This document shows, one piece after another, positions 661 through 57,902 of a DNA stretch of 64,000 nt. Under the pieces are notes generated by a model. The model saw nothing but the letters and a program-made list of their open reading frames with translations. It made no database searches and was not told the DNA's origin. Every line of letters starts with the position of its first letter. The stretch's first letter is position 1. Origin of the DNA: Escallonia rubra (Eukaryota > Streptophyta > Magnoliopsida > Escalloniales > Escalloniaceae); contig JAVXUO010001062.1 in NCBI GenBank assembly GCA_033065855.1, forward strand, positions 186,001 through 250,000, in the 5' to 3' direction. The translations under genes were made by a program, and so were the position numbers.

Positions 661-1530
661 ACCTTATCCTATCCATATCTTGTAATAGCCCCTCAAAGTT
701 TGACGCATCATACCTACTTTAAAGAATTGCAAATTAACCCTTTAAGTTTTCATATTTGCAAAATAGCCCCAAAGTTTCAAAATTTACATTTTTGCCCCAA
801 AATCTTTTTAAACTTCGATACACTACTAAGTACTAACACACGAGTATTGCTCAAAATTATCGCCTGTTTATTTTTTCAGAGCCCATATGGTTATTTAACC
901 CGCTCCCGAAATTCGGGATATTACATATATATATTTTTTGGGTCATGTCTGAATTTGCAGGCCAAGGGATTTTACTAGGATTGGGCACTCATATTCTTGA
1001 GGGGGCCCAAGCCTGGCCTGGCCCACTTTGCTATAAAGCCCGTTGGGCATGGGCTGGCCCAAGCCCTGCCAATTGACACATTTACCTCTACCATCTTGCG
1101 GGCTACCCAACAACAACCATACAAGCCCCTCGCTACCACTACATCAAGGCCACACCCCGCGACTTCTAAACAACCCACCAACATAGCCAATCGTCCCAAC
1201 CTCCACCTTTTGCCTCTCTCTACCTCTACCCTATTGCCCGCTTACCCAGACACAACCTCACAACCCCCGTCGCTTAAACAGCCAGCCACCACAACTAATT
1301 GCCCACCCACCACCGCCATGAACCAACTCCCACCACAAGCGAAAATACCTCAACCCACCATAACCCTGCGCCGCCTTAAGTAATCATCACCACAACTAGC
1401 GGAGATAGAAAAAGAGTGACTTGAAGAACTACAGATCGTGGGTGGGTTTCAGATATGAGGGATCCCACATATGTTTGTACATGTTGTTAATTCCAGTATC
1501 TTTGTAATCTAAGTCCAAAGATATAGTTCT
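661..1530. other. Unexplained stretch with a GGCCC-rich patch
   Basis: I see no gene here. Bases about 990-1060 are rich in GGGCC and GGCCC words, like the subterminal parts of the hAT element at 12010-15618, and could be an old hAT end. The matching other end was not found. Bases 1080-1380 are a CCA/CAA-rich stretch whose open frame reads as low-complexity protein. Confidence 0.4.
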
Positions 1531-2080
1531 TCACTCTGATGTGATCAAGGAAGTGCTAGACTGTGTGATAGGAAGTTTGCGTGTTTGTTCGTCACGATGT
1601 GTGTTTGTGTGTGCATGTTGCTTGTGTGTATTTGCGTATGTGTGTGCGAGATGTGCAGTGAATGGGCAGGGTGGTCCGTCCCGTGGTGGCTGGTTTGGGC
1701 TGACATCAGTAGTAGTAGAAAGTGAAGGTCTCCGGGGGAGGGGTAAGGGGCATACGACGGTGGTGTGATGGCCAGTGTGCGTATGTACACGTTTCTGTTT
1801 GTCTGCTTTGCGTGTATTTGCATGTATTTGGAGGGGGGGGGGGGGGGGGTGCATATGTGTGTGATAGGCAATCAGTGTGTTACTTGTGTGCGTGGGTGTG
1901 TAATGTGCGGTCTTGTGTGCGTCAAGTGTGTGTGCATTGCCGGTGTGTGTCTGTGCGTGATGGGCAGTGAGCAATGGATGGAATGAATTCGGCGGTGGGA
2001 TGTATTTGGATAGGCGGTGGTCGCCAGTGTGTCTCACGGGCAATAGGAAGCCTTTAGGAATAAGAGGAACCAAGGCCATT
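1531..2080. repeat. GT-rich low-complexity DNA with a 17-G run
   Basis: The plus strand is rich in TGTGTG words and holds an uninterrupted run of G at 1833-1849. The long open frames on both strands are His/Thr- or Cys/Val-rich artefacts of the repeat. Confidence 0.75.
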
Positions 2081-2988
2081 TTTGTATTTCATAACAAAAA
2101 AAAGTGTCCTAACTTTTCTTGATCGTTCCCTAATGAAAGTGGGTTTTATGTAACACAATGACAGGGGTGGGAGTTATAAAAATAGGTAGGCAGAGCCATG
2201 TATGTTTTTGAATAAACCTTAGGAATGCTGAGTGCAATTAACTCTAATCTTTATAACCAGTGTTGCTCCACCTAGAGAATCAATTTTATACTTATATCCT
2301 TTAAATTGGTAATTTTTTTTCAAGTATCTGTAACTTTTTTTGGTATATTCCATTAAAAAAGAAATCTTTAAAAGATAAATTCAGGTGTTAAGTCTCTGAG
2401 TTTGGAAGAAAGGAAAAAAAAGTCTCATGAAGAAAAGAAAATAAAAGAAAAACACTAGAAACTTTGTTTGACACTTATTCTTAATTTTAAGTTTCATGTG
2501 TTTTGTTTGTGAAGTCGAGAAAAAAGTTGAGGAACAAAAGTTTATAAATTCACGTTGTTGTGCCCTGTGCCCTTCTTGTAATAAAAAAGAAAGTTAAATT
2601 TACCGGTTTACAACCCAAATCTATCGTCACGTCAGCATACCCTCTAAACCGATCTATATTGATGATATCGAGTATCATTCTTTTCTCCCTTGATTTGCTA
2701 CTAAAGCAGCTGCGGCCGCGGTTTTGTGCTAAATGGCATGTTGAGTGGGTTGGGTGGCGTGGGGAGACAAGGATTTTTAACCCAAAACATTTTCTTGGTG
2801 GTAGTTTGCAGTCTAAAATTGGAAAAGATTTTTATGTACTCCGTATCAGGAATGTAGGGAACCAACTACCAAGTAGAAAAGAGAAGTATAGACATAGGAC
2901 CCAAGTAAAACAAGTCAAATCTTAGGACTCTTTCAAGGTAAGGTCCTAACATAAGGGCGTTAAATTGCAACGAGCAAACTTTGACTCC
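2081..2988. other. Intergenic DNA, no gene seen
   Basis: AT-rich sequence with a short GC-rich island near 2700-2770. One 121-codon frame (2560-2925) has no recognisable domain, and I treat it as chance. Confidence 0.5.
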
Positions 2989-3196
2989 TACTCCGGTTGT
3001 AGGAATCTTCCTTCAACCTTGTATATAGTGACAATTAATAATCTCTAAATTCTTAGAGTGTCTTTTCTATTAATATTTTCAGCGACAATTATTAGCAGCA
3101 TTTTTTTAGTGTCACTACATAAAAGTCACTTGAAGCATTTAACGACCATTAATTGTTCCTATATGAGGGTAGGAGGAAGTTCCCTTTAACTCTGCT
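2989..3196. mobile_element. Palindromic MITE, family M1 copy 1
   Basis: The two ends are inverted copies of each other. The left end, from TACTCCGGTTG through CTTCCTTCAACC to GACAATTAAT, matches the reverse complement of the right end around GGGTAGGAGGAAG. A second copy of the same family lies at 24677-24886. There is no coding sequence. The right boundary is accurate to a few bases, and the superfamily is not certain from the ends alone. Confidence 0.7.
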
Positions 3197-3709
3197 GTGA
3201 GCCAAAAAAAATTCAATTATAATTACTTCTTCCGAGCATTTCAGTTTCGTACATCTGAAGTCACTCAACTTCTTTTGTTGAGCATAATAATTGAGAAGGC
3301 ACGGGATTAACAGCTATCAGAAATGTCCAATATCTGAGGTAGCCTGATAATGCATATAACAATGCGATTTGCCATCCACATAACACATTGATCGTGGTTC
3401 ACCAAAATGCAGTTGCACTGACTATCCTTTATCAGTAGGATTAGTCGAGTACGTGACATACACCTACAGTGCATAATAGATCGACTCTTTAAAATACATA
3501 CCCCAAACTTATAACACACAACCCGGATTAGCTTCCCAAACATCACCTTAATGAAGCAAATATCAGCAACAAGCAAGCAAAGAAAGAAATGCAAAATGAG
3601 AGAGCAAAGCTTCAGTGAGTTTAATCGATTCACTACCTTAACTAAAGAATGCAAAATTTTAACTCCCGGTGTTGCTCTCTCTCTCTCTCTCACACACATT
3701 CATGTATCA
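3197..3709. other. Intergenic DNA, no gene seen
   Basis: A 130-codon minus-strand frame (3307-3699) begins in a CT/CA microsatellite near 3675-3700 and has no recognisable domain. I regard it as chance. Confidence 0.45.
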
Positions 3710-4930
3710 TTCATTTATCTCTAAAGAGCTAAAAGGCATGTTATTGCAAGTAAGTACTCCAACAAAAGCGTTTCTCTCATTCATATTACAAAGCGATGAA
3801 AGTTTAAAGGAGCAGTAAAGCTTCATCTCTTTATTTATGTGAATCCTCAAAATTGAAAAATTTTCCCCACGTCGAATTGATAGTTGAACTATTTAAAGCT
3901 TTTGCCAAGGTGCTTATAGGCAAAATAATAATAATAAGTTGATAAAGATTAGTAAAACTAAATCGGTTAAGTACACTCAACCCACATGAGGTTTGAGCTT
4001 ATTATACTCACCTACTTCAGGTTTGAGAAATTACACGCCCCCTTAGAAATTATAATATGACTGTATTGCCCTTGCAACATTCAGCTACTTATGCATTTAT
4101 TGTTTATCATTACCTTCATTTTCAGAACCCTAGCACCCATCAATAGAAGGCACCCAAATCGAAATTTGAAAATATTTTGTTCGCATGATTGCAATTTTCT
4201 TTGTCATGTATGTCATATCTGACATTTTGAATTATTGATCACACTTTCTAAATTAGAGACCACCACTTTATCTACCATCACCTAAATATGCAAGCCCGCA
4301 ATAAAGCGATCAATATCTCAAATTAGAACCGAGAGCCAAGTCACAGCTTATGAGAAACAATGTGCTTAGTTCATTTCAGATGACACCTCTATTAAAAACA
4401 AATCCCCATATCCATCTGTGTGGTTAGATATCAATGTAAGGTTTATTCTTGAATTTGTGTCTACAAAAGAAGAACAAAACAGAGATACTAGGCAAAGAAG
4501 GGGAGAATGGTGAAGGGACAGGAGAAGGTGGATGGAGATGTTGAATTTTAGTCATAACGCAATATTTCAGTTGTTGCTTAAGGGGAATAAGGGCAGATGA
4601 CAATAAAATCTATTTGAAATTTGATTGGAGGGGCAAAGAGAATCAACTATCAAACTACAACGGGAGAACGGAGAACCGTAGATTTTCAAACTCGACATAG
4701 GTGAGTGTAATAACTTTAAATCTCGTATATCCTTAACAACACCCTATTGGTTGATAAAAGGTGCATTAGCAATACTTTTTTATCTTTTAAATGACAATTG
4801 AGTCTGAATTTAGCCAGCAAACTTTGTGAATTTAGCTTCCCCTTAAAGTTTTCACTAAAGATTAAGTTACATAACTGAATATTCTAATAACTATAGTAAG
4901 TAAAAATAAATGGTTGAACAAATACCCTTA
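3710..4930 (+). repeat. Direct duplicate, copy A (about 1.2 kb)
   Basis: This segment matches 11030-12009 plus 15619-15792 in the same orientation over most of its length. It starts near AAAGAGCTAAAAGGCAT and ends near AATAAATGGTTGAAC. Copy A lacks the hAT insertion found in copy B and so preserves the empty site: a single CTTTTAAATG near 4786-4795, where copy B has two CCTTTAAG flanking the hAT. Copy A keeps a piece near 4650-4735 that is missing from copy B. Confidence 0.85.
3966..4740. mobile_element. Candidate TIR element inside duplicate A
   Basis: The left block around 3985-4030 (GAGGTTTGAGCTTATTATAC and following) matches in inverted order the block around 4685-4735, with about 40 similar bases sharing the core ACTCACCTA. 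This looks like terminal inverted repeats around 700 bp of unremarkable DNA. I could not find a convincing target duplication, so the boundaries are approximate. Confidence 0.4.
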
Positions 4931-5875: not shown

Positions 5876-7348
5876 CCTGCCCCACGTGGTCCACGTCCTT
5901 CCCCTCCCCCCCCCCCCCTCGTGACGCCCCCCTTATCCTTTTTCCAGAGCCAGCTCAAAGCTCGGCCGCACAGTCTTCTGCCATTTTTTTTCTTTCACAG
6001 CCTTTGACTACTGCTCACTCACGGATTTTTTTTCTCTGTCTTTTTTCTTCTCTCCCCCTCACTTTTCTCTCTTTCTAAGCCGTTCTCCCCGAACCCTTTC
6101 TTCCACTCTCCATCATCTTTACCAACTCTTTTCATACTCCATATCTCACCTACATAATCTCCACAACAATACAAACAAAAAAACTTTACGCTAGAAGATC
6201 GGTGGATAACCACTAGAAGATCGGTGGATTTTTCTTTAAATATATCAAGTTAAATCAAGTATTTTGAATTTTTTTATAATTCAATGTTAATTTCAAATTG
6301 TTCTTACCAATGGATTGTTTAAATTGTGTTATGCTTAAATTGTTCTTACCATAGTCTAAAATTCGTGTTTTTTGAGAGTTTGAAATTAGGGATTGAACTA
6401 ACGTTTATTAGTGAATATTCATTCGAAGTCCAAAAATAGTCATTGTAGACTAAAATCGAAGATAACGAAAATACAAATTGAACCAAACAAAAATCAGATC
6501 AATCGGAGATCGGATGAGCGGTTTTTAGGGCTTCAAAATTAGGTTTATACAAATCAGAGTATTACATTTATAGATTCCAAAATAGCGATTTTTTACGGCG
6601 TCAAATTTTGGATTTTTCACGAATTTATAAAAAATAGCTAGATCTAGATTTTTCCAAAGTGCAAAAAAAAGACCCCAATTATTTTTAAAAGATCTATATC
6701 AGGGAAAAATTTCAGATTTTTCCAAATACTGGAAAGGGCTCAACTGATACGGGGAACTTTGTAACTTTGCAGTGTAATTTAAAATATCAAGCTAGCACGA
6801 TTTCACGCAAAACTTTTATGAGAACCCTAGGATGTTGGGAAGTTCCATTTCCCAGGAATTTGCGCCATTCCGAAGTCGTTAGCTATTTGTTTGGCCGAAC
6901 GGGCTTTTAAGCGCTCGATCCGGACACCGGTTCGGGATTTTTGGGCAAAAAATCTGGAAAATACTTTTTAGATCAAGAATGAATTCAGGAAGCTTAAAAT
7001 AGCATCTCAAAGCACTTTTGAGATTTTCCGATGCTAGGGGACATTTTGGTAATTTGCCACCCCCAAGAGGGGTATTTTGGTAATTCTACAATGTTAAGTT
7101 TTTCAAACGACTTTTTATACAGAAATGTAAGTAAAACACCTGAAAGGTTGTTTTGAAGTTGATTTGGGGGCGTTAGGGTGATAATGAACCCCCGGGGGCA
7201 TACATGTATTTTGCCGCTCATCGGGGGTATTTTCGTAATTTTTCTTTGTAAAACGGGACACAACTGGAAGAAATAATTTTTATTTTTATTTAATTATATG
7301 ACTTGTTGAGAATGATATAATTTTTATTTTTTAGATTTCAGTATAAAT
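5876..7348. other. Upstream region of the MULE relic, no gene
   Basis: A CT-rich block (5880-6120) is followed by AT-rich DNA. Frames here are short and without domains. By position it is probably the 5' non-coding part of the Mutator-like element, but I could not locate its terminal repeat or target duplication. Confidence 0.45.
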
Positions 7349-9614
7349 ATGGATGCAACTGGAGGAAATAATTTTTGTGACGATTCTGATCCACCTTACT
7401 TGGGTCAAGTTTTTCAAACATTGGACGAAGTTGAAGCATACTATAGAGCATATTCGAAAACGATAGGTTTCGGTATTAGAATTAAGATGACCAGAAAACG
7501 GGCGAATACATATCAAATTTGTGGAAGACTATTTGAGTGTTATAGAGGAGCACCGCATGTATCCCCGGTTGTTCGGATCAGTGACGAAGGGCCAACAAGA
7601 CAAAGAAAACGGGACACATTTCCGGGTACCGGCTGCAAGGCCCATGTGTATGCAGTACACCGAAAAAATGAAAACCACTGGGTTGTGACGGGAGTGGAGT
7701 TGAGCCATAATCATCAGTTGATGACCCCTAGTAAGATTGGTCAAATTCATCAACATCGACAAATAAGCGCGGCACACAGACAACTGATATTTACAATGGC
7801 CGAGGCTAAAATCCCACGTTCTAGAATGATGGGGGTTTTCTCAAGCCATGTTGGGGGGGTTGACAAGTTGAGCTTCAACGAAGTAGACCTTCGAAATGAA
7901 CTTCGTGCTCAGAGGAGAGAGTATTCCTGTAAGAGTGATTCTCAAGCTACACTTGATATCTTCAGGCGCCTTTAGAGTGAGAATTCAAACTTTTTCTATA
8001 GTCTCCAACTGGATGACGAGAACCACATTACTACTATATTTTGGGCGGATGCCCGTTCTAGAGCTGCTTACCAAAATTTTGGCGATGTTGTGACGTTTGA
8101 CACCACATACCGCACAAATAAGTACTCTATGCCTTTTGCTCCGTTCACCGGGGTGAACCACCACTATCAGTCAATCTTGTTTGGCTTTGCCCTGCTTAGG
8201 GATGAGACGGAGGAGTCATTTACGTGGTGATTTGAAACGTGGCTTGAAGCAATGTATCATAGTCCTCCAAAGACCATCATCACCGACCAAGATCTGGCAA
8301 TGAAAAATGCAATCGCTAAGGTCCTTCTAGATACTCACCATGGCTTGTGCACATGGCACATAAGCAACAAATATCCCGAACGGCTTCACAATGTATATGC
8401 AAACCATCCGACATTCAAATAGTGACTTCAATACATGTGTGAAGAAATCGTTGACGGTAGACGTGTTCGAGGAGAGGTGTGCCAAGTTAATGGATGACTA
8501 CTATTTGCACAGTCATGAATGGTTGCAAGTGTTGTATGAGATCAGGACACAGTGGATCGGTTCCTACACCAAAAAGTTTTTTGCAGCCGGAATGACTACG
8601 ACCTCGAGAAGCGAAGGTATGAATGCATTCTTTGATGGGTACGTATGCTTTTCTTCAAGTATAACAGAGTTCGTACTACAGATGCAGAAAGCCCTTGAAA
8701 GGCAATTTTTCCTTGAGAGAGAAACCGACACGACTACAGTTTACAGAGAAAGAGCCATAGCAGTTTTTTCACCTTTGGAGGCTCATGCGGCTCAAGTCTA
8801 TACCAAGGAAATGTTTAGACAGTTTCAGGATGAACTACTAAAGTCGAATCAATATAGCATGACAAAGTTGCACGAGCTATGCAACATATATCTCAAGGTT
8901 TATGCTCTGACAAATGTGACGAATTTTGCCAATCCGTGCTCTTCGTCTGCTCCGAAGAACAGAAGACATTTTACCGTAGCAGTGTGTATAGAGACCGGGT
9001 TTGTTAATTGCAACTGTCAACTGTTTGAGCATAAAGGTATACTTTGTCGACACGCGTTGAGGTTTTTTAGCGCCAAGAATGCTCGTGAAATCCCTCCAGA
9101 GTATATCTTGGATCGGTGGACGAAGGAAGCCAATAGAGTCCACGGTCACATTCCTTACGTGCCCAATGTTTTAGTTGATTTTGAGCAATCTGAGATGCTG
9201 CGATATAATCACCTTTGTAACATCATGCACGGTTTATCATTGGATGCAGCGTCAACATTTGATGGGTACAGGTATCAAGTTGAAGCAGCCGCACGGGATA
9301 AGGCTAACCTTGCACATTTTAGGATGACATTACCAGAAAGACGGGACAATCGAGCTTCACAGCCAGTCATTGACAGCACTAGCCTGCAAGGTAAGGAAGA
9401 CGATATTTTTGATCCAATTATTTCTCAAACAAAAGGGCGAAAACGTGTAATACGTATGAAGAATCCGATTGAGGAAGCAACGGGTCAAAAAAAATTGCGA
9501 AAGTGTGCGTTGTGTAATAAGATGACTAATCATGACAAGAGAAACCATTATAAAGTGCTAGGTATCGAACCTGGCACTATGCTCGAGGAGGACGATGATG
9601 AGGAAGAGTGTTAG
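7349..9614 (+). pseudogene. FAR1/FHY3-type Mutator-like (MULE) transposase relic
   Basis: About 755 codons of a MULE/FAR1-family protein. In order it shows a FAR1-type DNA-binding zinc region (codons 30-130, with YYRAYSKTIGFG and VTGVELSHNHQL); a MULE DDE catalytic core whose acidic residues lie in [21 protein letters not shown] and TSRSEGMNAF; a SWIM zinc finger, CNCQLFEHKGILCRHAL; and a C-terminal zinc knuckle, CALCNKMTNHDKRNHYK. The frame is broken by TAG at 7973-7975, TGA at 8228-8230 and a one-base insertion near 8420; the rest is open. The start is the first ATG of the long frame. Apart from these lesions the domains are complete, which suggests fairly recent inactivation. It could instead be a decayed domesticated FAR1-like gene, but the surrounding repeats favour a transposon. 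Confidence 0.9.
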
Positions 9615-12009: not shown

Positions 12010-15000
12010 TAGAGTTGTCAAAGGGCCGGGCTTGGGCCGGCCTAGCCCAAGCCCATCGGGCCTGTAGTGGGGCCGGGCCGGGGCCGGGCCAGTGGAGCTG
12101 CCAACCGGGCCGGGCCTACCGAAGGCAAACCTAGGCCCAGTCCAGGCCCTGGCCCTAGGCCCAATATCTAGGCCCGGGCTTGGGCCGGGCCCGGGCCCTT
12201 TTTTTTTTTTCTTCTTGTTATTCAATTTTAAATTTCATCTCTAGGCAATAGTCACAATTTAACGAACCTAATCTGTATCATTTTATTTCATTATAAGTAA
12301 TATACATATATATGTATGTATGTATATACATATTTATTTGTTAGCCGCTATATTTTTTATTATATGTTAAACATTTTCATACTCTTCTTGGTGAGCTTTA
12401 TTAATAAAATCTTAACACATAACAATTTATATAAAAAAATAATAAATGTGTTCATAGGCCCTCCTCCTTTTATCCGGGCTTGGGACCGGCTGCTTGTAAA
12501 CAAACAGGCGAAGTTACCTATTTTTTTATATATACGAAAAATATATATCTTGCTTGTAAAAATTTATTTTATATATATGGAAAAAAAGTATATTTTGTGA
12601 AAAAAATTATTCTTAAAACTCTAACAATCAAAATAATAATGCATGTCTATCCAAAATATCAGCAATCAAAGATCAAGAAATCTGCAGCGTCAACCAAAAT
12701 GATCAAAAGAAGAAAATAAAAACAAATTACCTAATCATCCAGAAGTACTTCAATATCCGAGTCATTGCTCTTCCTATCATCAATCGGTTTATCTTGCTCG
12801 CGGTATTTCGCATCAAGATAATCCTTCCAACATACACATAGCTCGAGCGACTCGGGGTTAAGACGACTCTTCCTGTCATCCAAAACCCTCCCGCTTGCTG
12901 AAAATGCCGATTCTGAAGCAACCGTGGAGGCTTGCACTGGCAGTACATCCCGTGCAATTTGGGATAAAGTTTTATACATGTTTTGATTTTGTTTCCAAAA
13001 ATTTAACAAATTAAAATTAAATTGTTCTTGCCTTGATAAATCAGAATAATGATCAGTATTTGCATATACATCAATCTCATTAAAAGAGGAAAAAGTATAC
13101 GAACCTCCCGAATTAGAAGTACCTTCACCTGGTAGTTGTCTTGCTACTAGATGTTCAAAGCCTTGAAGGTATGGCGCATAATACCTCTCAGCAGTGGATG
13201 ATGATGTAGCTCGCCCGCGCACGTCAGCAGAATTACGATAGAGGTTGAACAAGTCCTCAAACCTCTTGCTCACTTTTGCTGTGAGCAAGGTTGTGTCATC
13301 TGCTGTGTAGCGCATTAATTTCGATATCTCTTGTATCGAGGCGTTCACGCCATGCAACTTTAACCTAGGATCTAAACAAGTAGCCACAGTAAAAATAGCA
13401 GGCAGTTTACTCCAATATTTATTAAATTTTTGATCCATCACTTGTACTATTTCCCTAAAGGGTCCTATATATCTCCATTTTGTTAACATTGTAGCCATCT
13501 TCAGAATTTCTATTACAGCGAGAGGAGAGGTGGGATAGTACGTACCAGACAATAAATTGGTAGACGTGTAGAATACCTCTAAAAATTCAGCTAGGTATGT
13601 GGCCATCTACCATTCCTCTTGAGTTGGCAAGCCGGTTGGGAACTGGGTTAGTAGAAAATGCGTATAGACTTCTCGGTATGCCAGAATGTGTAAAAGCATG
13701 TGGTATGTAGAGTTCCACCTGTGGACCACATCTGTAACTGCTCTCCTGCGAGGCATATTATATTGAACACACAACGTTTTAAATTGTTGTGTTCTCAAAC
13801 TCGAGCCATTAACATACGCTGTCATACCCCTCATTTTGAGCAGAATATCTCCTGCAGCAGCTAAACCATCTTGAACAATTAAATTAATAATGTGACAAAC
13901 ACAGCGAACATTAAATAATTCACCATGAAGTACAGGTTGAAGCGTCTCCTTTAAAGCTGCAACATCAGCTTTATTATTAGAAGCATTATCAAAACTAACA
14001 CTCATAATCTTATCCTTAATTTTAAATGTGGTGCATGCTTTTAATATAAGAGTAGCAATGTTCATTCCATCGTGCGGATAAGGGAAGTGCTCGAAAGCGA
14101 TGATTCTCTTGTGCATAACCCAATCTGCATCAATCCAATGAGCGGTCACACAAGAATAACTAACAAAAGTATAAGGAGATTGCCAAATATCAGAAGTAAG
14201 ACTAACTTTACCGTCAAATTTATCGAAATAATCGATAAGGCATGCTTTAGCAGCCTTGTACTGTCGGAGTGCATCGGATCTAGTTGTGTTTCTATGAACC
14301 TTTTTGTACAAAGGTTGAACGTATGTGTTCATATATCTAGAGTGCTTAGGATTATCGGCAAAAGAAAAGGCTTGTTCATCATGAATAACAAATTCAGCGA
14401 GACCGTCTCTTTGCTCTCGCTAATTATAAACAAATAACTTACCGTCAAAAGATAACTGCGTTTGGGTAGGTTTGACGTGGCCTTGTCGAGGTGCACACTG
14501 AGGGTAATGCCTGTTAAGATGTCCATTACCACTACCAGTCGAAAATAATTTAAGACAGTACTTACATCGAGCTTTTCGGATGTCGTCCACCGTAACTACG
14601 TCGAAATGATTCCAACACTCGGCTTTCTTCTTTTTCCCCTTTTGGACTTCTGGCACGTTATCGGAGGCATTGCTCGGCCCTTCTTCATCATGACCAGGCA
14701 TAGGGTTGAGATTATGCCACTGAGTAGTAGCTTCGCCAACCGAGCTGCGTCCTTGACTATAATGCGGGGGGTCTTTATCAGGCGTGTATTCAAAATCTGA
14801 AATGTTTTGATTGAACTCCCAATTGGCTTGGGTATCTATCATAGCGCCTGTACTCATTCGTCCACGAACGAATGGTTGTGTTGGTGCTTGGATTGGTGTT
14901 TCTGATGGCCGTGGCGCTGGCGCTTGTGTTGGTGGTGGTGCTTGCGATGATGATGATGTTTTTCGTGATGACGATGCACGCCTAATTCTCTTAATTATTC

Positions 15001-31740: not shown

Positions 31741-32257
31741 AAATATGGGACATTGATAAACAATTACTGGCAGTAATTGCTTATCAGTAATTGCAATCAT
31801 ACTACCCTACTTCCAGCAGTAATTTACTGTTGGAAGGATGGTAGTATACATGTATTGTTAATGTGGTATATAGGTGGATATATAGAGGGAAAGACAAGAT
31901 GTGTCTTGCAAAATGAATTTGGGAGTAGGTGTATATATGTGGATAATTTTTACATATGATTTTTAATGTTTATATATATTTGTTGTTCATGTAGGAACTG
32001 TCCAATCAGTGTAGCCCATAGCCCAAATAGAATACTTCGTACTCTGATTGGGTGGTTCTTTACTATTGCCAACCACAAAACATTCAATTTAAAAAGAGTC
32101 CATCCAATTCATTTTAAGATAGCGATAATACGCCCGTGGAACTTTATATAAAAAATAGAAACTTAATATAAGGTAGATTTAGGTTTCATTTATAGACCCT
32201 ATAAGAGGGTGTTTGGGATTAACTTGGGCTGATCAAACATGATTAATCTAGATTAAA
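31741..32257. other. Intergenic DNA, no gene seen
   Basis: AT-rich DNA. Bases 32205-32257 (GGGTGTTTGGGATTAAC...) and 33246 onward (GTGGTGTTTGG...) look like parts of another small repeat that the MULE at 32258 interrupted. Confidence 0.4.
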
Positions 32258-33245
32258 GGGATAATTATAATAATATCATTGAGGTTAGGGTGAAATTACA
32301 CTCAAGGACACTAAGTTTCAAAAGGTATCAGCCGTGTCCTTCCGTCATTCGTCTGTTAAAAAATCGTACATTTTGATGATGTCATCCAATACATATTTTT
32401 AAAATACCAATACTACCCTTAGTACAGATTTAAACCATACTTTTTTAATCTTAAAAAAAAAACCCTATTATTTTCAAAATATCTCTCTCTGTGCAACTCT
32501 CTCACCCCGTCGCTGCCCCTTACCCTGTTGTCGCTGCTCTCATCCCCATACCCTATCGCCGCCCCTCCCCCTACCCCTACCTCATCGCTGCCCCCACCTT
32601 CCCCTCATCTTATTGCCTCCCCCTCCTCCCCTCACCCTATCGCTGCCCCCTTCTCCATCTATCAAGTCGCTGCCCTTACCCTTCACTCTACTGCCCCCCT
32701 CCAGCCGCGACATGACTGTAATGATTCCGGCCGTGACAACCGCCGCAAGTCTTGGAGATTTGGGTTGTTGATAGGTTCTTTTTGTAGATTTGATTTATAG
32801 GTTTAGTTTTTAAAAGGTTAGAAATTCATAGCAATTGGTTGTGGTAGATTTTGACTTTGGTAGATGGTGGAAACTGTGGCTGTTGTGAGTTTTGGGTTTA
32901 TTGGATATTGGTAATTGTTGTGGTGGTGGAGGTGACGGTGATGATGATGGGAAAGACTTGCGACAGATGGTTGGTGGAGTTGTGATGATGCAGAGGTGGT
33001 GTAATGGTGGTGTTGAGGTGGTGGTTGAAGTTGCCAGGGATGGGGTGGGAGGGGACTAGGGAAAAGATAACTGAATGGCATTTAAAAAATTAGGTTCCTA
33101 AATCATGGGTAATTTGATCTTTTCGTTCCAAACCGTTATCTATATGAGTTTTCCGTTCGGTCAACGGATATAAGTGTTATTTGTCTAAACTAATGGATAC
33201 GTGTATAATTTCACCCTAACCCAGAAACATTACTGTAATTATCCC
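32258..33245. mobile_element. Non-autonomous MULE, family A copy 2 (988 bp)
   Basis: The ends GGGATAATTATAA and, inverted, GGGATAATTACAG start imperfect terminal inverted repeats of about 100 bp with the shared word GGTTAGGGTGAAATTA. The 9-bp flanks TAGATTAAA and TAGATTAAG match at 8 of 9. It belongs to the same family as 15822-17889, but the interior is different: a CCCTATCGCTGCC-rich block (32500-32720) and a GGTGGTGG-rich block (32880-33040). No transposase. Confidence 0.87.
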
Positions 33246-35593
33246 TAGATTAAGTGGTGTTTGGTAAAAAAGATTAATAGATTTGATATGTCTCAAAAAG
33301 GTAAGAACTGATTTAATCCATAATCCTAATAAGTAAGGGTTATAAAATAATCACTTTTCTCATAAATTTTATAATTAGATTTGACCTTCTAATGTATAAT
33401 ACGATCTCCATATTTCTCACAAAAGGACATTCCATATCCTTTAACTAATTTGAAAAAATTATCTTACTATAAGCATCAATGTGATGTTTTGGGTGTGTTT
33501 AAAATGAGAAGTAAACAACTTTTATAGATGAGTGAAAATAACGTTTTCAATAATTTATTTGTGTATTATAGTATCTACAAATGAAAGTTATGCTAACATT
33601 ACTTCACTAAATCGATAAAATTTATTTATTAAGTATCTTTTATGGTCATTTTGTCATAGTGGAATTGATTTAAGCACTTTTTATTCAAGCAGTTTTTGTA
33701 ACTTTAAGTTAGTTTATAATTACTTTTGTCAAACAACAAATCCATGTCGCTTAAAGTAGATGACATTTAATTTTAAAAACTGATTAAGATTAAAACTGAA
33801 ATTTACTTTTTAGAATTAACCACAAACGGGATCCAACTCGTTCGATCATTTTTAGTTCTTATGAGAGGGCAAGCTAAATGTCACTTTTCATGACTTGGTG
33901 GATAAAAAAAGTTCCTTTAGGCTAAAGTTTGTTGGGCACAAATAGAAGGTATTGTTTACAACGCGATAAGTCCCATGAAGTCCTTAGGTTATTGTTAATC
34001 TTTTCGACGTAGGAGTTGGCTTCGCGTGCTATCTTTGAGGGGAGAACGGGAGCCAAGTGGTATCAAGAAGGCCCAATTATAAATGTGAGTCTACCTTGAC
34101 CTAGAAGTTTAGGTCAAAAGGTTTTGAGTCTCTTGGTATAACGTTCATCTTCTTGGTCAATAGGTTGTGACGTCACCACTTAGAGTTGGACTGAAATATC
34201 TCCCATGCAAGTTGTAGAAAGGTTGCTCACAACTTCATACGTTGTCCGTAACGCCGAATAGCTGATGGCCTTGCATTGCATCAAAGAGAGGACGGACCTT
34301 GCGCCACCATGTTAAGAGACTCTTCCCAAATCATAATCTTGAAGCAGCCCAACTCGGTGAATTAATCGATAAACACAATCTGGCCTAAAATTTTAAGCCA
34401 ATAAATCGTGATTCTTAGTGTATATCAATCTTGATTATTACAAATTTTAACAATAAGGACAAAATATTTTTACAGGCAATCATCTGGCATTGGAGCTGCT
34501 ACATCAGATATTTTTGTCTACTGAACACCGAATATACACCAAGTTATTAATGTCTTTGCTGTTATAGCAACTTTAGTGATAAAAGATTGTCAGTAAATTA
34601 TTTTGCCGATGTTACTATAGTTTATAATGACTTTTTCTTTACCAAAATGTATTTAATAATTTTTTTTTTATTACATGTAAGACCCTGGTCCCATATTAAT
34701 AAAGTTACATGTGTTTGTTTAGCATAAAGAATCATTAACAGAGGATATTTTATAGAAGAAATAGACACTTGACTTGATAAGTGAAGTTGCCCTCATTGAC
34801 AGGCATCACCTAGTGTATAAGTCTTCTGCAATTTTTCTGCATTTCTTTAGATAATTCTATTTGCTTGATACTTTTAGCGACACTCGCTTCCTTTCTTAAA
34901 GTGAATTGGTTTTCCTTAAAACGAATGCATACTTTTATACTTTAAAGTGTATTTCTACAATTTTATCTTCCTTGCTTGCTATATGAAATTTGGCTTCCCT
35001 TGCATTGCTGGTCATAAGTGGCACCCACGAGCTGAAATTTCTAGGTTTGAGGTCTTCCTCATATTATCGCTAAAAATGAATAAGCAAAAATTTTGAGATG
35101 TTGGCCCAGAGATAACCTTTCATCTCAACGACTTAAGTTTTTTTTTTTATGAAGTTAGCAAATGTTGCAAATTGTTTTCTTGGATCTGTGAATACTCGAA
35201 AAAGGAGGCCATATATAATTTTCATAAGACGTTTTAGTTCAATTCAAAAGCAATCAAAAGATTAGCAAGGAAAGGAGTAAAGTTGTCTAACATGGGTTTC
35301 TCAAAAGTTTGACAAAATAATACTGTAGCTCTCACTCTCTATAGTCCCAGAGGTCTAGATCCTAGACTACAGGTAGATTTCCTTCCCTATGCTTCTGATA
35401 AAAGTTAATTTCACCGACAGTAAGAACCTGTAGAGAAAGCCCGTTTGCTTTCCTTTGTGATCAGGTCTCTCAGCTGACTCTCTACATATACTGCTTTAGC
35501 AGTTGGTGTCCACAAAAGCAAGTTTAAAGCTGTTTCTTGAGGCTCATCTCCACACAAACAATTGGGAGGAATCTAACCAAAGCCTCCCTATAC
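33246..35593. other. Intergenic DNA upstream of the P450 gene
   Basis: I see no gene. Bases 33900-34340 have a more even base composition than their surroundings and could be a degraded coding relic on the minus strand, but I cannot assign a family. The last few hundred bases should include the P450 promoter and 5' leader; no unambiguous TATA box stands out. Confidence 0.4.
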
Positions 35594-38794
<3,201 letters not shown>

Positions 38795-39194
38795 GCCTTC
38801 AGTTTTCATTTCTTTTACTGGCAGAGAAAGATTTAAGCATGGAATTTGCAACACTTCAAAATCAGATGGGACACCCATCCGAAGATTTTTTGATAAGAAA
38901 AACCTTCAATCTGCTCGGTTATTCAAGAATTTGAGGAGTTGTACGCTGTAATATATCTGTTTTCTTGTAAATAATCATCCACGATACTTCATTTTTCTTC
39001 TGTATTGGTATATATTCAACAAAGGTTAGCATGCAAATAGCCCAAAAATTAGGGGGTCTACATGTAGATTTATCCCAAACAACATCGTCGAAGAATGTAA
39101 TTAACGCAAAAATAAGAGGCAAATAACGATTGGATATGAATTAAAAGTAGTTATGCAATATGTGAGGTTATACTCATAAAAATATTGTCAGGCA
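38795..39194. other. Shared 3' intergenic region of convergent genes
   Basis: These 400 bp separate the stop codons of the P450 (+) and the subtilase (-). They must hold both 3' untranslated regions and polyadenylation sites, so the two transcripts may overlap. I see no coding sequence and no canonical AATAAA that I would assign with confidence. Confidence 0.6.
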
Positions 39195-44988
<5,794 letters not shown>

Positions 44989-50170: not shown

Positions 50171-50396
50171 CATGTCGCCATGAGTTCTTGCTTAAGGAGT
50201 AGTTCTTGTATTTTATCTTTTTTAGTTATACATCTAGATAACATATACGATTCATGAAAAAGTCTTAGCTATGACTGTGACGATGCAACATACTCTTTTA
50301 GTAACAAAGTAACACCGCATAGTATGGTTCCGCACCGTAGATAAATTCTCAGAAGCAATCAACCATAGTGGGAGTTTTGCTATGGTCACTACAAGA

Positions 50397-50735
50397 AAAC
50401 ACGTTTTTAGCGACGGAGTTTTACCGACGGATAACAATCCGTCGGTAAAAACGAGTTTAACCGACGGATACCACCGTCGGTAAAATTCCGTCGTTAAAAA
50501 CTTATTACCGACAAAGTTACCGTCGGCGAAAGTTGTTGCCGACAATTTTTTTGCGGCGGTCTTTTAGCGACGGAATTACCGTCGCTAAAACTTTTTTATA
50601 AAATTAATTTTTTCGAGGGTTTTATAAAATTGTTTTAGGGACGGAAGGAATCCGTTGCCAAAACTACCGTCGATAGATATCGTGATTTATCGACGGACTT
50701 TTAGCGACGGGCCCAATCCGTCGCTAAAAGTCCTC
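50397..50735. repeat. Left subterminal repeats of the CACTA element
   Basis: More than a dozen GCGACGG, CCGACGG and inverted CCGTCG words in both orientations follow the left terminus. In well-studied CACTA elements, subterminal repeats bind the element-encoded protein; here that role is inference. Confidence 0.85.
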
Positions 50736-50764
50736 GATTAAAACAACCAGATCTGCCTTTCTTT

Positions 50765-51176
50765 CTCTTCCCCTGTTTCTCTCTCTGAAAAATCTCCCAC
50801 CGTTGTTCTGCTCTGGCGACCAACCTCCACGGTGACCCACTTCCGGCGATCCCCCTACACGGTGACCCACTTCCGGCGATCCCCCTACACGGTGACCCAC
50901 CTCCGGCAATCCCGCTCCACGGTGACCCCTCCCTCCACTGCCACCGCATGAAAAGACTACCACCGTCGTCTCTTCCCCCGTTTCCCTCTCTGAAAAATCT
51001 CCCACCGCTGTTCTGCTCCGGCGACCAACCTCCACGGTGACCCACTTCCGGCGATCCCCCTACACGGTGACCCACTTCCGGCGATCCCCCTACACGGTGA
51101 CCCACCTCCGGCAATCCCGCTCCACGGTGACCCCTCCCTCCACTGCCACCACGTGAAAAGACTACCACCGTCGTCG
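50765..51176. repeat. 206-bp tandem duplication with nested 30-bp repeats
   Basis: Two copies of about 206 bp start at 50765 and 50970 (CTCTTCCCC, TCTGAAAAATCTCCCACCG, ACTACCACCGTCGTC). Inside each, a 30-bp unit around GGTGACCCACTTCCGGCGAT is repeated about three times. The two copies differ by only a few bases, so the duplication looks recent. Long minus-strand frames across it are artefacts of the repeat. Confidence 0.92.
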
Positions 51177-51602
51177 CGCCACTGACGCCGCCGCCCTCCA
51201 CTGCCGCCGGCTATTGTGCCTTAAGGTAAGTTCCGTTTAGTCTTATTTATTCAATTCTTGTGCAACATTTATACATATTCTTTGTGTTTTTTATGATTGT
51301 AACGTGTAGTGATCCTATTGCCCCAAGAAGCCATACCCTACCGAATTTTGTTTTCCCTTTTAGTTTATAGAAGGCAAAAGAAGTAGTATTAAACAAAGTA
51401 TGACATGCATGATGCACGTAGAATTATGTAAGCAAAGAGTTAAGATACTTGTTGAGCGATGTAAGCATCGAAGCATTTGTCAAGATGCCTTGTTGGAGAA
51501 TTTCATGCTTCTGTTTGTCTAGTTTGGCATGAAAAATAAGAAAGATCCTTAAAAGTTGCTATGCAATTGATATATTGTCATCCTTCCAATATATTATTAA
51601 CC

Positions 51603-52779
51603 CATAATATCATCCTCAGTAAGATCAAGCACCTCAGGACTGAATACCGATCCATTGTCATACATAGACTGGACTACGAGCCCATAAGAGAATGGCCTTA
51701 CTCCAAGTTTTGAGAGAAGGGCAGACTCAGAGATGATCCCACCTTATCACATTTCTTAATAAGCTCCACAGGAGTGATGATGTCCACAGTACCTTTGTTG
51801 ATCTTCGTTGGGATGTTAAGCACCTAAAAAGTGGATGAAACAAAGTAATTAAAGTGGCTCTATAATTGACTAAGTTCATCAAGACTTAAGAGGAACCTGA
51901 AAGAAGGACGTCTGTGAAGGGTCAAGTCATGTGTTTCCCGGGGGGACAACCACATCAACGGGACCTATAAGGCCGACCCTGGCAGGAGCCCCAACCTGTT
52001 AAGAGGAAAAGTATTGACACTATATTAATAGAAGAAATAAAAAGTCAAGTCTCATTCTTAACCTCTGAGTGGGTGGCAGTACAACCATCGAAATAGGTAA
52101 GTGAAAAGTCAATTAGTTCAGGTTCACATTCGAAACAGGTAATTCCAAACGTGTGGTTCAGAGGAGTAAATAGAAAGCAGCCATTCTCATACAAGTACAC
52201 ATGTTTCTTGGTTAAGAAGGAAGCAAGCAAGTGATTGATTGATATGCTCTAAAGTAAGCATGCGCACAGGGAGCTGACTGTTTCTCATAAGTGATTCAAT
52301 ACATATATCAGTGCTATATATCAGCTGAGAGCACTTTGAGATTACATAAGCCCACATCCCTGATGCTCCACACCTTGTGTTTCCTCAAACCGTTCATCCT
52401 CTAAGTTACCACCAATACAGGTTTAAGATTAGAAAAATGGAAATAAAGGTTGAAGGAAATCATAATGTACAGCGTATATTATGTTCTTATTAGTGGCTCT
52501 CGGTTCTTTTGTGAGCTCTGAAATGTAGGCATGCCCTGTTAAACTTCAAAGTTACCTGGAGAGAGCCTACAAAGATGCCTAGTGAAGGAAAATGAGATGC
52601 AACAGACACAGACAAAAATATGTAAACCGTTTGATGAACCTGATAACGAATGACAAACAGTTGAACTAATTAAATTGCTATGAAAACAGAGGCAAATTAA
52701 AATATCATACCTTATATTTGGCGACCACCTCACTCACTTCCTTCAAGTCACCTTTAGTAAAGATCAGCCCCACGTTACC
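51603..52779 (-). pseudogene. Captured fragment of 60S acidic ribosomal protein P0 gene (RPP0)
   Basis: Three minus-strand exon pieces encode the central part of plant P0: 52711-52779 (GNVGLIFTKGDLKEVSEVV), 51897-51995 (VGAPARVGLIGPVDVVVPPG) and about 51603-51823 ([20 protein letters not shown], then [18 protein letters not shown] and [11 protein letters not shown]). Splice sites AAG|GT, CAG|GT, AACAG| and TTTAG| are preserved between them, so the intron-bearing gene, not its mRNA, was captured. It is disabled: Gly in PPGNTG is replaced by TGA, and a 2-base insertion after DKVGSS shifts the frame. Roughly half of a P0 protein is represented. P0 anchors the ribosomal stalk; this copy cannot encode it. 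It lies wholly inside the CACTA element. Confidence 0.93.
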
Positions 52780-53916
52780 CTAATCCAAAACGAGAGGAAC
52801 AATTACTAATTGTTACACCAAAAAACAACAGCCAATCCACTTCAGAATTAGATTTCAAAAGTCAAGGAAAGGGTAAACAAAACAGGAGTTATAATTTTCC
52901 AGAGCAGGAAACCCAAATCGACGAATAACTCACTGAAGACACAGTTAATATATGTACAGTGCCCAAACTACGGAACGAACATACGTAAGAGCAATATGAA
53001 GAAACTGATGCAGGTCAAGGCCAGGCCTAGTAGGTACGTGGTAAATGCACGCATGGCCCAAAGCACGCGGTAGCATTGAAAGCCATAGATATTCTCGAAT
53101 AACAGATTCATTTATGTAGTGGTAGAAGTATTACAACTCGTCTAAAACAGAGTAGATCATCTCTGAAACAGTCATGTCTGAAATATTAATCTTCTATTCG
53201 AGAAAAAAAAAACAGACCTCATGGAAATAGGCAAATTAAACAAGAACTGCTTCCACAAGTTAATAAGCAACTTCACAACTAAAAGTTCAAATGGAAGAGA
53301 TAACCTACTCTAGAACAGGTAATACAGCCGTTAAAGCACATCAACAAAGGCAAATACAGCTACATCATTGTTTGATTTGTAGTTATGGTGTAACTTCATG
53401 CCTTCTCACGCTCATCATTGTTTGATTTGTAGTTGCTAGGTTTAGTTCATTGGTTATTGGATTGAGTTATTGATCTTTGTTTTGCTTGCATTGCGGATGC
53501 GTTTTCGTTCGCCATTGTTCCTCTCTCAAAACAAATCTCTGGTGCTGGTATAGACTTTTGTATGCCTTTGTGTAGGTAGTAGTAAAGATACAAGATCTGA
53601 ATATTTGAGCGTTCATTTGTCAATAGTGATTTGGATATAGTTATTAGATTTGTTGGTGGTTTTATTAGATAGATGGTCATCTCCTGGTTTTAGAGTCAAT
53701 GCTCATGTAGTCCCCCACCATGTAAGCTACCATGTAAGCTACAGAAAGGGAAATAGTAGAATTTGAACTATGCATTCTCTTAGATTACATTTCCCATTTT
53801 GCAGTAATGCAATAGCTATCTAGGAGACTTTGCAGTAATAGATTTAATTCAGCTATAAAATTGATGCTCATCAATTGAATAATGCCCGATTGGTTTTTCA
53901 TGTTAAAGTAGGTTAA

Positions 53917-54360
53917 ATGGCTTCTGCTTCGGTGAACAGGGATGTTTCAGTCGGCAGGCACTTCTTCAAGGTCATGATGCCTGGTTTTCATGCAGAACTT
54001 GTATGCCATCCCGCTTTCTCTGTGTTTTCGTGCGTGTTAAAAGTTTTATCGTTGGTTAAAAACTTACCTGTCTTATTGTATTATGAATATGTTAGGCCAT
54101 ACCGGTAGCATTTTGCAGATTGCTTACCACATTGAGATTTGAAGCAACTTTAACCAGCCGCAAGGGGTCATGGCCTGTTAAATTGAAGAAGAAGGTTGGC
54201 CAAGAGGAACTTTGCTTCGAAGAGGGTTAGAACGAATTCGTGCAGCAGCATGACCTTCATCTAGGAGACTTTGTAATCTTTGAACACTTGGGGCAAATGT
54301 GTTTTCAAGTGCTGGTGTTTGATCATAGCACTTGTGAAAAAATTACTTTCCCCCAATGTT
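53917..54360 (+). pseudogene. Captured fragment of a REM-type B3-domain gene
   Basis: The first exon piece (53917-54000) starts with ATG and encodes SVGRHFFKVMMPGFHAEL, the opening of a REM-family B3 DNA-binding domain. After a 118-bp intron-like gap with GT...CAG borders, 54119-54360 encodes RFEATLTSRKGSWPVKLKKK, later HDLHLGDFVIFEHLGQM and VLVFDHSTCEK, the rest of the domain. A TAG replaces the conserved Trp in the EEGWNEF-like motif, and the exon junction is out of phase as I read it, so it is a pseudogene. REM proteins are plant transcription-factor-like proteins often active in reproductive meristems. It lies inside the CACTA element, opposite in strand to the P0 piece. Confidence 0.9.
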
Positions 54361-54634
54361 GAACTCTGAGCAGTAATTAGACAATATTTTAAATTAATCG
54401 CATCGGATATATAAATTTTGAACAATTTTGTGTTATTTGAACATTGACTATTTGTTTGATAATTTTAGGTTGTTAATTGTGATTATTGATCGATGATTTT
54501 AGGTTGTTAATTGATGATTTTAGATTGTTAATTGTGCGTTTGAGATATTGAGATTGTTGACGGAGGATGAGACCCAATTGGTTTGAGTTTTTTATTACAG
54601 GTTTAGGAATTAAAAAAAAAAATTTAAAAAAATG

Positions 54635-54940
54635 ACTTTTAGCGACGGATTAATTCCGTCGCTAAAAGTTTTATCCGTCGCTAATTTCCTTAAAAAAGAA
54701 AATAAATTAAAAAACGTAAACATAATTAGCGACGGATATTCCGTCGCTAATTTAGAAATAAATCCGTCGCCAAACGTTTTATATTAGACGACGGATTTTA
54801 TAATTCCGTCGCAAAACTTTTAGTAACGGCCTTTTATACGAGGGATTTTTAGCGACGGGTATTCCGTCGCTAAAGCTTTTAGCGACGGAATATAGGCTTT
54901 TAGCGACGGATTTTCCCGTCGCTAAAAGCCTTTTTCCTTG
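54635..54940. repeat. Right subterminal repeats of the CACTA element
   Basis: About ten copies of TTTTAGCGACGG or its inverse CCGTCGCTAAAA lie in about 300 bp before the right terminus, several arranged as close inverted pairs. They mirror the left subterminal region. Confidence 0.85.
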
Positions 54941-54948
54941 TAGTGGGT

Positions 54949-56411: not shown

Positions 56412-57902
56412 GGGGAAAGTAGGGAATGACCCCCTCTACTTTACACGTTGTGCGATTTGCCCCCCTCCATTTCAAATTTAAGCACTAAACTCCCCCACAG
56501 TTACAGAAAATGGGCACCTTAGACGAAAACCGTTAAATATAACAGCGCGTGGTCAACACGCGCGTTGACTAACGATTTTTTTTTTGTAAATGACGTTTTT
56601 GCCCATTCTGTTAAGTGTAATTAACTAATGACCCCATGTACTATATACAGTGTGCTATTTCTCCCCCCCCCCCCTCTACTTTAAACATAACCACTAAACC
56701 CCCCCACACTACAAAAATTGGGCACTTTAGACGGGACTGTTATGAATATTCGTGAAATGACCAAAATATCCTTATTTCCTTACCCTATTTAAGTTTAATA
56801 CCATTCTTTCAACTTCTTTTTCTCTCCTTTCAGACTTTTTACTCAATCTCACATACACACACTCCACGCACACCCAGTACGCACACACGCACACACACAA
56901 ACATACACACACATACCTTAAACCCACACACAGACGCGCACCCACTGCAAACATACATACACCCTGCTCGTATACGACCGTGGCGGCAACGTCATCGCGA
57001 ATCTGGTGCAGCCCCAGCGGCGTGTAGCCAGTCACGGTGGTCATGTGACGCTGTTTGGCGCGATGTTACGGATTGGGGTGGCACGACGGTGGAGGTTAGA
57101 CCTGCGATTTGGGGATGTGGTCGTTGATCTTGGTGGCAGGGATCTGGACAGATGTGCGACAATCAGACGCCGATATCCTGTGTTTGTGGGGATTGATGTT
57201 ACCGGTGTTGATTGCGTCGGTCGGTTGGTGGCCGATCAAGAAGCCCCACTGGCTTGCAGACGCAAGGTAGTGGGAAATGGCAGCGAAGAGGCAACTCACG
57301 ACAATGTGTAGTCGGATAGTATAAAGTTGGGGAGTTGGCCGGAGTGGTGGTTACTGTGACGCTGATCATGGTAGTTGTTGCGCCGGTGATATATCAACGA
57401 CGACAATCGTGGTTCTTTTTTTCTTTTGTAACTCCCTGGTGGTCGGAGAAAAAGACCAGTGGTTGTGCTCAGTGAAACACCAATTGTATCGGGGTTGACC
57501 AGTGAAGGAGGTGCAGATTGCGGCAATCCTTTGTTTGCGGTGAATCTGGTAGCGCAGAATAGGGTGGGGGACTGGACTGGCGGGTGTAGGGGGGAGGGTC
57601 ATGGGCAAAATTGTAATTTAAATTTAACGGTTTCCATCTAAGGTGCCCAATTTCTGTAAGTGTAGGGGGTTTAGTGGTTAATTTTGAAGTTGAGGGGGGG
57701 AAATTATACACCGTGTATAGTACAGGGGATCATTAGCTAATAAAGAAATAAGGGTATTTTGGTCATTTCACGCTATTCATAACGGACCCGTCTAAGGTGC
57801 CCATTTTTTATAACTGTGGGGGGGTTTAGCGATTAAATTTGAAGTGGAGAGGGGCAAATCGCACAACGTGTAAAGTAGAGGGGGTCATTCCCTACTTTCC
57901 CC
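56412..57902. mobile_element. Non-autonomous MULE with doubled terminal repeats (1491 bp)
   Basis: The outer ends GGGGAAAGTAGGGAATGACC and their inverted partner are nearly identical for about 70 bp and similar for about 150 bp. They are flanked by a perfect 9-bp target duplication TAGAATGAT (56403-56411, 57903-57911). A second, diverged inverted pair lies just inside (about 56621-56760 and 57625-57745; CTAATGACCCCATGTACTAT and CTAATGATCCCCTGTACTAT). The middle contains a CA-rich block (56850-56970) and a GC-rich block (56980-57300) without recognisable protein. No transposase. Confidence 0.95.

Follow-up and report, generated by a model that had tools for sequence, protein, structure and literature searches.

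A stretch of 64,000 nt of the Escallonia rubra genome (hereinafter the window, to which all coordinates refer unless a contig is named) contains a complete CACTA transposon at positions 50387-54945. It is a non-autonomous Pack-CACTA element with pieces of two unrelated host genes, namely a sense piece of a REM-like B3 gene and an antisense piece of the gene for ribosomal protein P0. Relatives of the element were sought in the same plant assembly (566 Mb, 3,222 contigs), where the contig of the window is designated C1447. Comparison with these relatives places the B3 piece first and the P0 piece second, the latter replacing ~1.05 kb in the interior of a B3-bearing element. The gene pieces were probably acquired by serial capture through template-switching break repair.

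How cut-and-paste transposons gain gene pieces is still argued. In E. rubra, the recipient type, the donor-like gene, and the hybrid are present in one genome, with a divergence of ~2%, so both junctions are readable base by base. A single lineage records successive captures, from B3 through P0 to an NLR-like LRR fragment, of which the latter two replace the interior while the ends stay in place.

Structure of the element and its gene pieces

The element begins with CACTACAAG and finishes with CTTGTAGTG. The outer 9 bp of its terminal inverted repeats are perfect, the outer 30 bp are 87% complementary, and a 3-bp target-site duplication (TSD), GGT, is present on both sides, as the initial annotation had read it. 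Subterminal AGCGACGG units occur at the left and at the right, as in the CACTA superfamily. Exon matches inside the element likewise confirm the annotated antisense P0 and sense REM-type B3 sequences. The features are as follows.

50384-50386, no strand: left TSD GGT, read directly
50387-50416, plus strand: left terminal inverted repeat, CACTACAAG..., 30 bp, 87% complementary to the right end
50404-50733, no strand: left subterminal region with AGCGACGG and CCGACGG repeats
50764-51173, no strand: tandem duplication, 205-bp unit, two copies, 97% identical
51338-51609, plus strand: left-middle segment common to the P0-free element on C2358 and to C1957, C1947, and C827; ends exactly at the P0 start
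51609-53362, minus strand: captured genomic P0 stretch with introns and exons, from alignment to C1764; 1-bp microhomology (A, 51609) at the left join
51609-51823, minus strand: 5' part of a P0 exon, frameshifted, cut at ...VLDLTEDD
51897-51995, minus strand: P0 exon VGAPARVGLI...SQTSFFQ, 94%, one stop
52711-52779, minus strand: P0 exon GNVGLIFTKGDLKEVSEVVAKYK, 23 aa, identical to the C1764 protein
53363-53384, plus strand: 22-bp templated filler CATCATTGTTTGATTTGTAGTT at the P0/element join
53413-53434, plus strand: filler template, inside the element 50 bp downstream
53917-54000, plus strand: B3 exon 1 (MASASVNRDVSVGRHFFKVMMPGFHAEL)
54001-54095, plus strand: B3 intron, GT...AG
54096-54362, plus strand: B3 exon 2 to its stop codon, with an internal TAG in the window copy
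54636-54931, no strand: right subterminal AGCGACGG repeats
54916-54945, minus strand: right terminal inverted repeat, ...CTTGTAGTG
54946-54948, no strand: right TSD GGT, read directly

A Pfam scan of all 26 stop-to-stop frames of at least 55 aa in the element detected no transposase; the match of one frame was no better than chance (E 0.0041; 17.6 bits, with the cut-off at 38). Because Transposase_21 candidates abound in the assembly (2,228 at first look), with many long open frames among the best 150 scored, the element likely moved with the help of a CACTA transposase encoded at another site and acting in trans. Dozens of the 150 scored matches share an E-value of 1.6e-84, most of them with open frames of 761 aa, which suggests that an autonomous CACTA family has recently proliferated. 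On C55, a piece of the B3 family and a transposase copy lie at most 5 kb apart.

The P0 piece is one contiguous stretch of ~1.75 kb, antisense to the element. Its counterpart is a P0 gene at C1764:62171-67898 (5.7 kb), whose exons are open through the acidic C-terminus. The best solved-structure match of a 135-aa exon peptide of this gene is chain 4v7e_Cq, the 60S acidic ribosomal protein P0 (E 1.3e-67), of a structure that we take to be from wheat. Gene and piece align over 1,767 columns with 95% identity counting gaps and ~98% without gaps, and the Kimura two-parameter (K2P) distance comes to 0.020 for one set of 864 sites and to 0.021 for another of 766. The 5' exon part gives two overlapping matches between 51823 and 51600, which are split by a 2-bp insertion relative to C1764. 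The initial annotation placed the P0 sequence at 51603-52779; the antisense P0 sequence is present, but that extent is too small, and the real piece spans ~51609-53362 with introns. Because the introns are kept, the source was DNA rather than mRNA.

The Ribosomal_L10 domain occurs at five places in the assembly, of which the C1764 gene is one. A second P0-like gene, on C2371, matches the element over 73 bp alone (82%) and has no 21-mer in common with it in the stretches compared. The C1764 sequence is unbroken past both P0 breakpoints, one of which lies in a coding exon and the other in an intron. Judged from this alignment, the P0 piece was copied from the donor-like C1764 gene or from a close relative of it. 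With an assumed substitution rate of ~1.3e-8 per site and year, the divergence of 0.02 at this one gene would correspond to roughly 0.7-0.8 million years. Separately, 81 bp of the window (33749-33829) are 79% identical to DNA that precedes the first exon of the C1764 P0 gene; this is a small dispersed repeat, unrelated to the capture.

The initial annotation had also noted that read-through transcription would yield RNA antisense to P0 mRNA. Of the 394 21-mers in a 414-nt coding sequence of the C1764 gene, which comprises the captured exons and extends ~30 nt past them, 207 have a perfect match on the antisense strand of the element, in runs of up to 69 nt, so that any small RNAs derived from the element could match P0 mRNA.

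The spliced B3 exons encode 116 aa, a single REM-like B3 domain with start and stop codons. In the window copy, the frame is interrupted by an internal stop (TGG to TAG). The majority sequence of the family matches Pfam B3 with E 1.4e-14, and the peptide has one weak solved-structure match, At1g16640 (1yel; E 8.3e-5). A 31-mer of the B3 exon, with at most three mismatches, occurs at 457 places in the genome, while the reversed-pattern control gave none. Several B3 matches lie close together on C1471, C2145, and C1869. Many other B3 matches are the transposon-borne piece or diverged copies of it, which could inflate the number of B3 genes counted in this genome; such a domain, captured from a transcription-factor gene and now present hundreds of times with no clear sign of selection, is a warning for B3/REM gene counts in genomes of this kind.

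Junctions, copies, and the order of captures

In a DNA search for relatives, the best 40 of 6,617 candidates were scored, and 20 sister stretches were chosen by their match to the right (B3) part of the element. Twelve of the 20 have CACTA ends with identical 3-bp flanks, in nine different triplets, so the sister elements for which the initial annotation advised a search do exist at other sites. L019 and L024 may be one locus counted twice, because they share the flank and nearly all of the sequence. Three further stretches, L064 (C827), L065, and L066, were retrieved and set aside. The left part is common to most of the 20 sisters, while the middle differs. Specifically, the left halves show 95-98% ungapped identity to the window copy in all 19 other rows compared (two further members have no usable left part). 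A mosaic origin of the left halves on C344 and C1956 was considered and rejected, their lower BLAST identity having come from a 30-bp length difference. The 205-bp duplication is private to the window copy, and its unit is single in the 19 other members where it was found. One sister, on C718, is 6.3 kb long and has two unique middle blocks (element positions 979-4348). One reading frame there bears a weak resemblance to glycosyltransferase family 8 (GT8) and may be a further captured piece, but a GT8-like piece is not claimed, as the Pfam match (E 0.0054) is below the cut-off.

The structure of a P0-free element on C2358 defines the recipient type. This element has its own TSD, CAC, and its last base is mutated. 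Over the 641 bp that precede the left P0 join it matches the window element at 99.2% identity, and it then runs on with ~1.05 kb that are absent from the window element. This replaced middle is present at least partly in 16 of the 20 sisters, and the remaining four are P0 copies; the P0-free state is therefore ancestral. At the left join, the recipient reads ...CCCATAATA, the donor ...GATCATCC, and the product ...CCCATAATATCATCC, with 1 bp shared. At the right join, the donor sequence ...ACAGCTA is followed by CATCATTGTTTGATTTGTAGTT and then by the ATGGTG of the recipient. The 22-bp filler repeats positions 53413-53434 of the element without a mismatch. It is present in all five P0 copies, indicating that they descend from one event.

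Genome-wide, the P0 junction occurs at five places (C1447, C344, C1956, C311, and C1717), which represent four loci, and the undisturbed P0-free junction occurs at 32 places, with no control matches in either case. Together with the 457 B3 places, these counts support the earlier proposal of a multi-gene Pack-CACTA element with at least two separate captures. In a tree of the right half, the P0 copies split from the other members with a branch support of 0.90; neither this tree nor that of the left half separates the recipients.

Three P0-B3 elements have complete ends and perfect TSDs (C1447, GGT; C344, AAC; C1717, TTG). The hybrid has thus transposed as a unit with its cargo. The copies on C311 and C1717 are 99.6% identical over 4,267 columns, including ~0.9 kb of right flank, and by this measure represent the same locus in two versions. 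The first 106 bp are missing from the C311 copy, but C1717, which shares the right flank, is complete. The left end of the C1717 element is 11.4 kb away, behind a nested insertion, and this seeming case of a P0-B3 arrangement without CACTA ends, a situation that the initial annotation had named as evidence against capture, is thereby explained. The insertion (C1717:~32,083-43,475, ~11.4 kb) lies inside a P0 exon and is absent from C311; from its TG...CA ends and its TSD, CTCAG, it is apparently a long terminal repeat (LTR) retrotransposon.

The C1956 element has no perfect TSD at its outer ends. At C1956:~65,023-73,971, an element with P0, NLR-like, and B3 pieces holds a nested B3-CACTA element in its P0 part; the nested element is ~85% similar, in opposite orientation, and has the TSD AAA. 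Nor were P0 or B3 sequences found to run past the CACTA ends in the 20 sister stretches, which would likewise have spoken against capture. The 5.7-kb donor P0 locus matches these stretches inside the elements alone, and the B3 and P0 sequences of the window element have no match of at least 80 bp past the element ends, save the nested sister in C1956.

In the copies on C344 and C1956, a foreign piece of ~500 bp replaces the equivalent of window positions ~51338-52376. This piece matches a locally repeated gene cluster on C2794, C2148, C2795, C2796, C2702, and other contigs (32 candidates scored). One of its three peptides resembles the LRR region of plant NLR genes (LRR_14, E 4.6e-10, 39.2 bits, slightly short of the Pfam cut-off of 40), and the other two have no Pfam match; the NLR label is our reading. 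Because part of P0 is cut away in C344 and C1956, the NLR-like piece came after P0.

Template switching and other possible routes of capture

Capture by template-switching break repair would have proceeded as follows. An ancestral CACTA element acquired a piece of a B3 gene and multiplied. In one B3 copy of the C2358 type, a double-strand break or gap would then have opened, either following excision or in the course of replication, with the loss of some 1.05 kb of interior sequence. Gap-filling synthesis would have switched template into the P0 gene, copying ~1.75 kb. Synthesis would next have switched briefly into the element 50 bp downstream, leaving the 22-bp filler, and then back to the correct place. 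As it still had both CACTA ends, the P0 hybrid moved to at least three other sites, and in one branch a further replacement inserted the NLR-like LRR fragment. We favour such repair because it would be expected to leave joins of this kind, missing recipient sequence, and a filler copied from the element itself.

Several observations weigh against this reading. The right half does not single out C2358 as the nearest relative. The P0 piece differs from C1764 by several indels, including a block of ~40 bp and one of 5 bp, and six substitutions relative to C1764, which may have arisen on either side, are common to all P0 copies; for these reasons the actual donor may be a gene closely related to that on C1764 instead. 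At two informative P0 sites, C344 groups with the window copy and with C311/C1717 to the exclusion of C1956, in mild conflict with the grouping implied by the shared NLR-like piece. CACTA membership was shown for part of the 457 B3 places rather than for every one. As to the parent loci that the initial annotation had hoped to locate, a donor-like RPP0 is present on C1764, but no close host REM parent was found among the 20 places read of 150 listed B3 places. Three of these 20 are diverged copies of the same piece (83-86% DNA identity), and 14 of the other 17 could be aligned, with at best 40% amino-acid identity. Finally, the published Pack-CACTA model can also leave end-joined junctions with filler.

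In that model, two B3-CACTA elements would flank a P0 stretch, lose their inner ends, and move as one hybrid. It was proposed for Arabidopsis Pack-CACTA and extended to other Pack-TYPE elements, according to PMC13317346 and PMC8903248, and it predicts the same layout of left piece, gene, and right piece. We nevertheless consider tandem insertion unlikely here, because the C1764 locus is undisturbed at both breakpoints and one of them is in a coding exon. Moreover, the 5.7 kb of C1764 have no other match of at least 80 bp to the element. The element also resumes near the continuation of the recipient, with ~1.05 kb missing, an outcome that two independent inner deletions need not give. It is almost inconceivable that P0 and B3 were never captured, a CACTA element having landed beside or within decayed genes, or the arrangement being an assembly artefact. 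The missing first 106 bp of the C311 copy and the seeming left truncation of C1717 agree with this idea, but the same P0-filler-B3 junction is present at four loci, and at the loci with the TSDs GGT, AAC, and TTG the ends are complete. These independent copies refute it.

The B3 frame, known elements, and the surroundings

The B3 frame was compared in 60 rows, comprising a main subfamily (44 rows) and the subfamilies W (11) and M (5). L009 and L010, two versions of one locus, are both among the 60, and L080 was excluded from the alignment as too short. L012 and L012_1 are separate elements, the one lying inside the other. Start, splice sites, frame, and stop are intact in 35 of the 60 rows, as would be expected of a protein that serves the element, in the role of an accessory DNA-binding protein, or its host. 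However, in the main subfamily omega for private changes is 1.10 and that for shared ones 0.95, the intron is no more variable than the exons, and nonsense changes show no deficit (8 of 124, against 3.6% expected; p 0.09).

The smaller and older groups are ambiguous. Shared changes lean synonymous, with 8 of 14 in W (p = 0.009 before correction for several tests) and 3 of 7 in M, and the W intron is more variable than the exons (22 private changes at 95 sites against 55 at 351). Measured against the main majority sequence, three old copies (83-86% DNA identity) have Nei-Gojobori (NG86) omega values of 0.45-0.60, with no correction for the transition bias under which NG86 tends to underestimate omega. 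Against these, omega for private changes is 1.03 in W and 1.39 in M, NG86 omega over all 15 subfamily pairs ranges from 0.45 to 1.38, and the window copy has an internal stop. Purifying selection on the frame is thus unsupported in the main subfamily, and we regard use of the protein as very improbable. We read the intact frames as a sign of youth, not selection, although weak constraint may have acted long ago, and we infer that the gene pieces lack a cellular role. A more elaborate scenario is similarly hard to credit, namely that the B3 domain now serves as a DNA-binding protein encoded by the element, with the 116-aa peptide from some of the ~457 copies aiding the spread of the family or its escape from silencing, and that small RNAs made from the P0 and NLR-like pieces cross-match essential genes.

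The element can be compared with known systems described in the literature. Pack-CACTA elements of Arabidopsis, rice, and maize have the same composition, namely CACTA ends, a 3-bp TSD, host gene pieces, and no transposase, and pieces from several loci have been reported. CACTA Pack-TYPE elements are mostly low-copy in rice and maize, whereas the B3 piece here is dispersed in hundreds of copies. A further difference is that donor-like gene, P0-free recipient type, and product can here be compared base by base. Multi-gene CACTA elements are already known from soybean (Tgm-Express1, PMC1947982) and maize (Pack-CACTA, PMC8903248). Tgm-Express1, in the wp allele of F3H, contains intron and exon pieces of five unrelated genes; it lies in an intron and contributes its exons to chimeric transcripts by splicing. 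For the Escallonia element, no enclosing gene was recognised in the ten window frames scanned for neighbours.

CACTA elements of Chenopodium also hold host gene pieces, including an 80-bp AP2 piece in three species (PMC8978399). Their pieces lie upstream of the element's own coding region, whereas the Escallonia element lacks such a region and had its middle replaced in the later captures. In rice, transposon excision sites are repaired with copied foreign filler averaging 13 bp (1-123; PMC4423477). Here, by comparison, ~1.75 kb of a gene and a 22-bp self-derived filler lie inside an element. Ds-like elements of maize contain filler DNA, sometimes from genes, and replication errors during break repair are cited there as a suggested capture route (PMC3260210). 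In the titles and abstract starts listed by searches of one open-access collection for Pack-CACTA, CACTA with B3, filler, and multiple captures, no earlier case of the Escallonia family was found. The value of the family is its clear stepwise record; it is not a new kind of element.

A scan of frames elsewhere in the window detected the following neighbours.

7316-9611: FAR1 and SWIM domains
12734-13606: C-terminal part of a hAT transposase
36039-38127: cytochrome P450 exons; of four frames, one exceeds the cut-off
39198-42232: subtilase exons

The CACTA element lies outside these frames. To its right, the stretches 56412-56782 and 57618-57902 are imperfect inverted copies of each other (72-84% over 118-324 bp), and the vicinity of the sister on C1123 holds a similar sequence (92.5% over 107 bp), suggesting a small repeat family.

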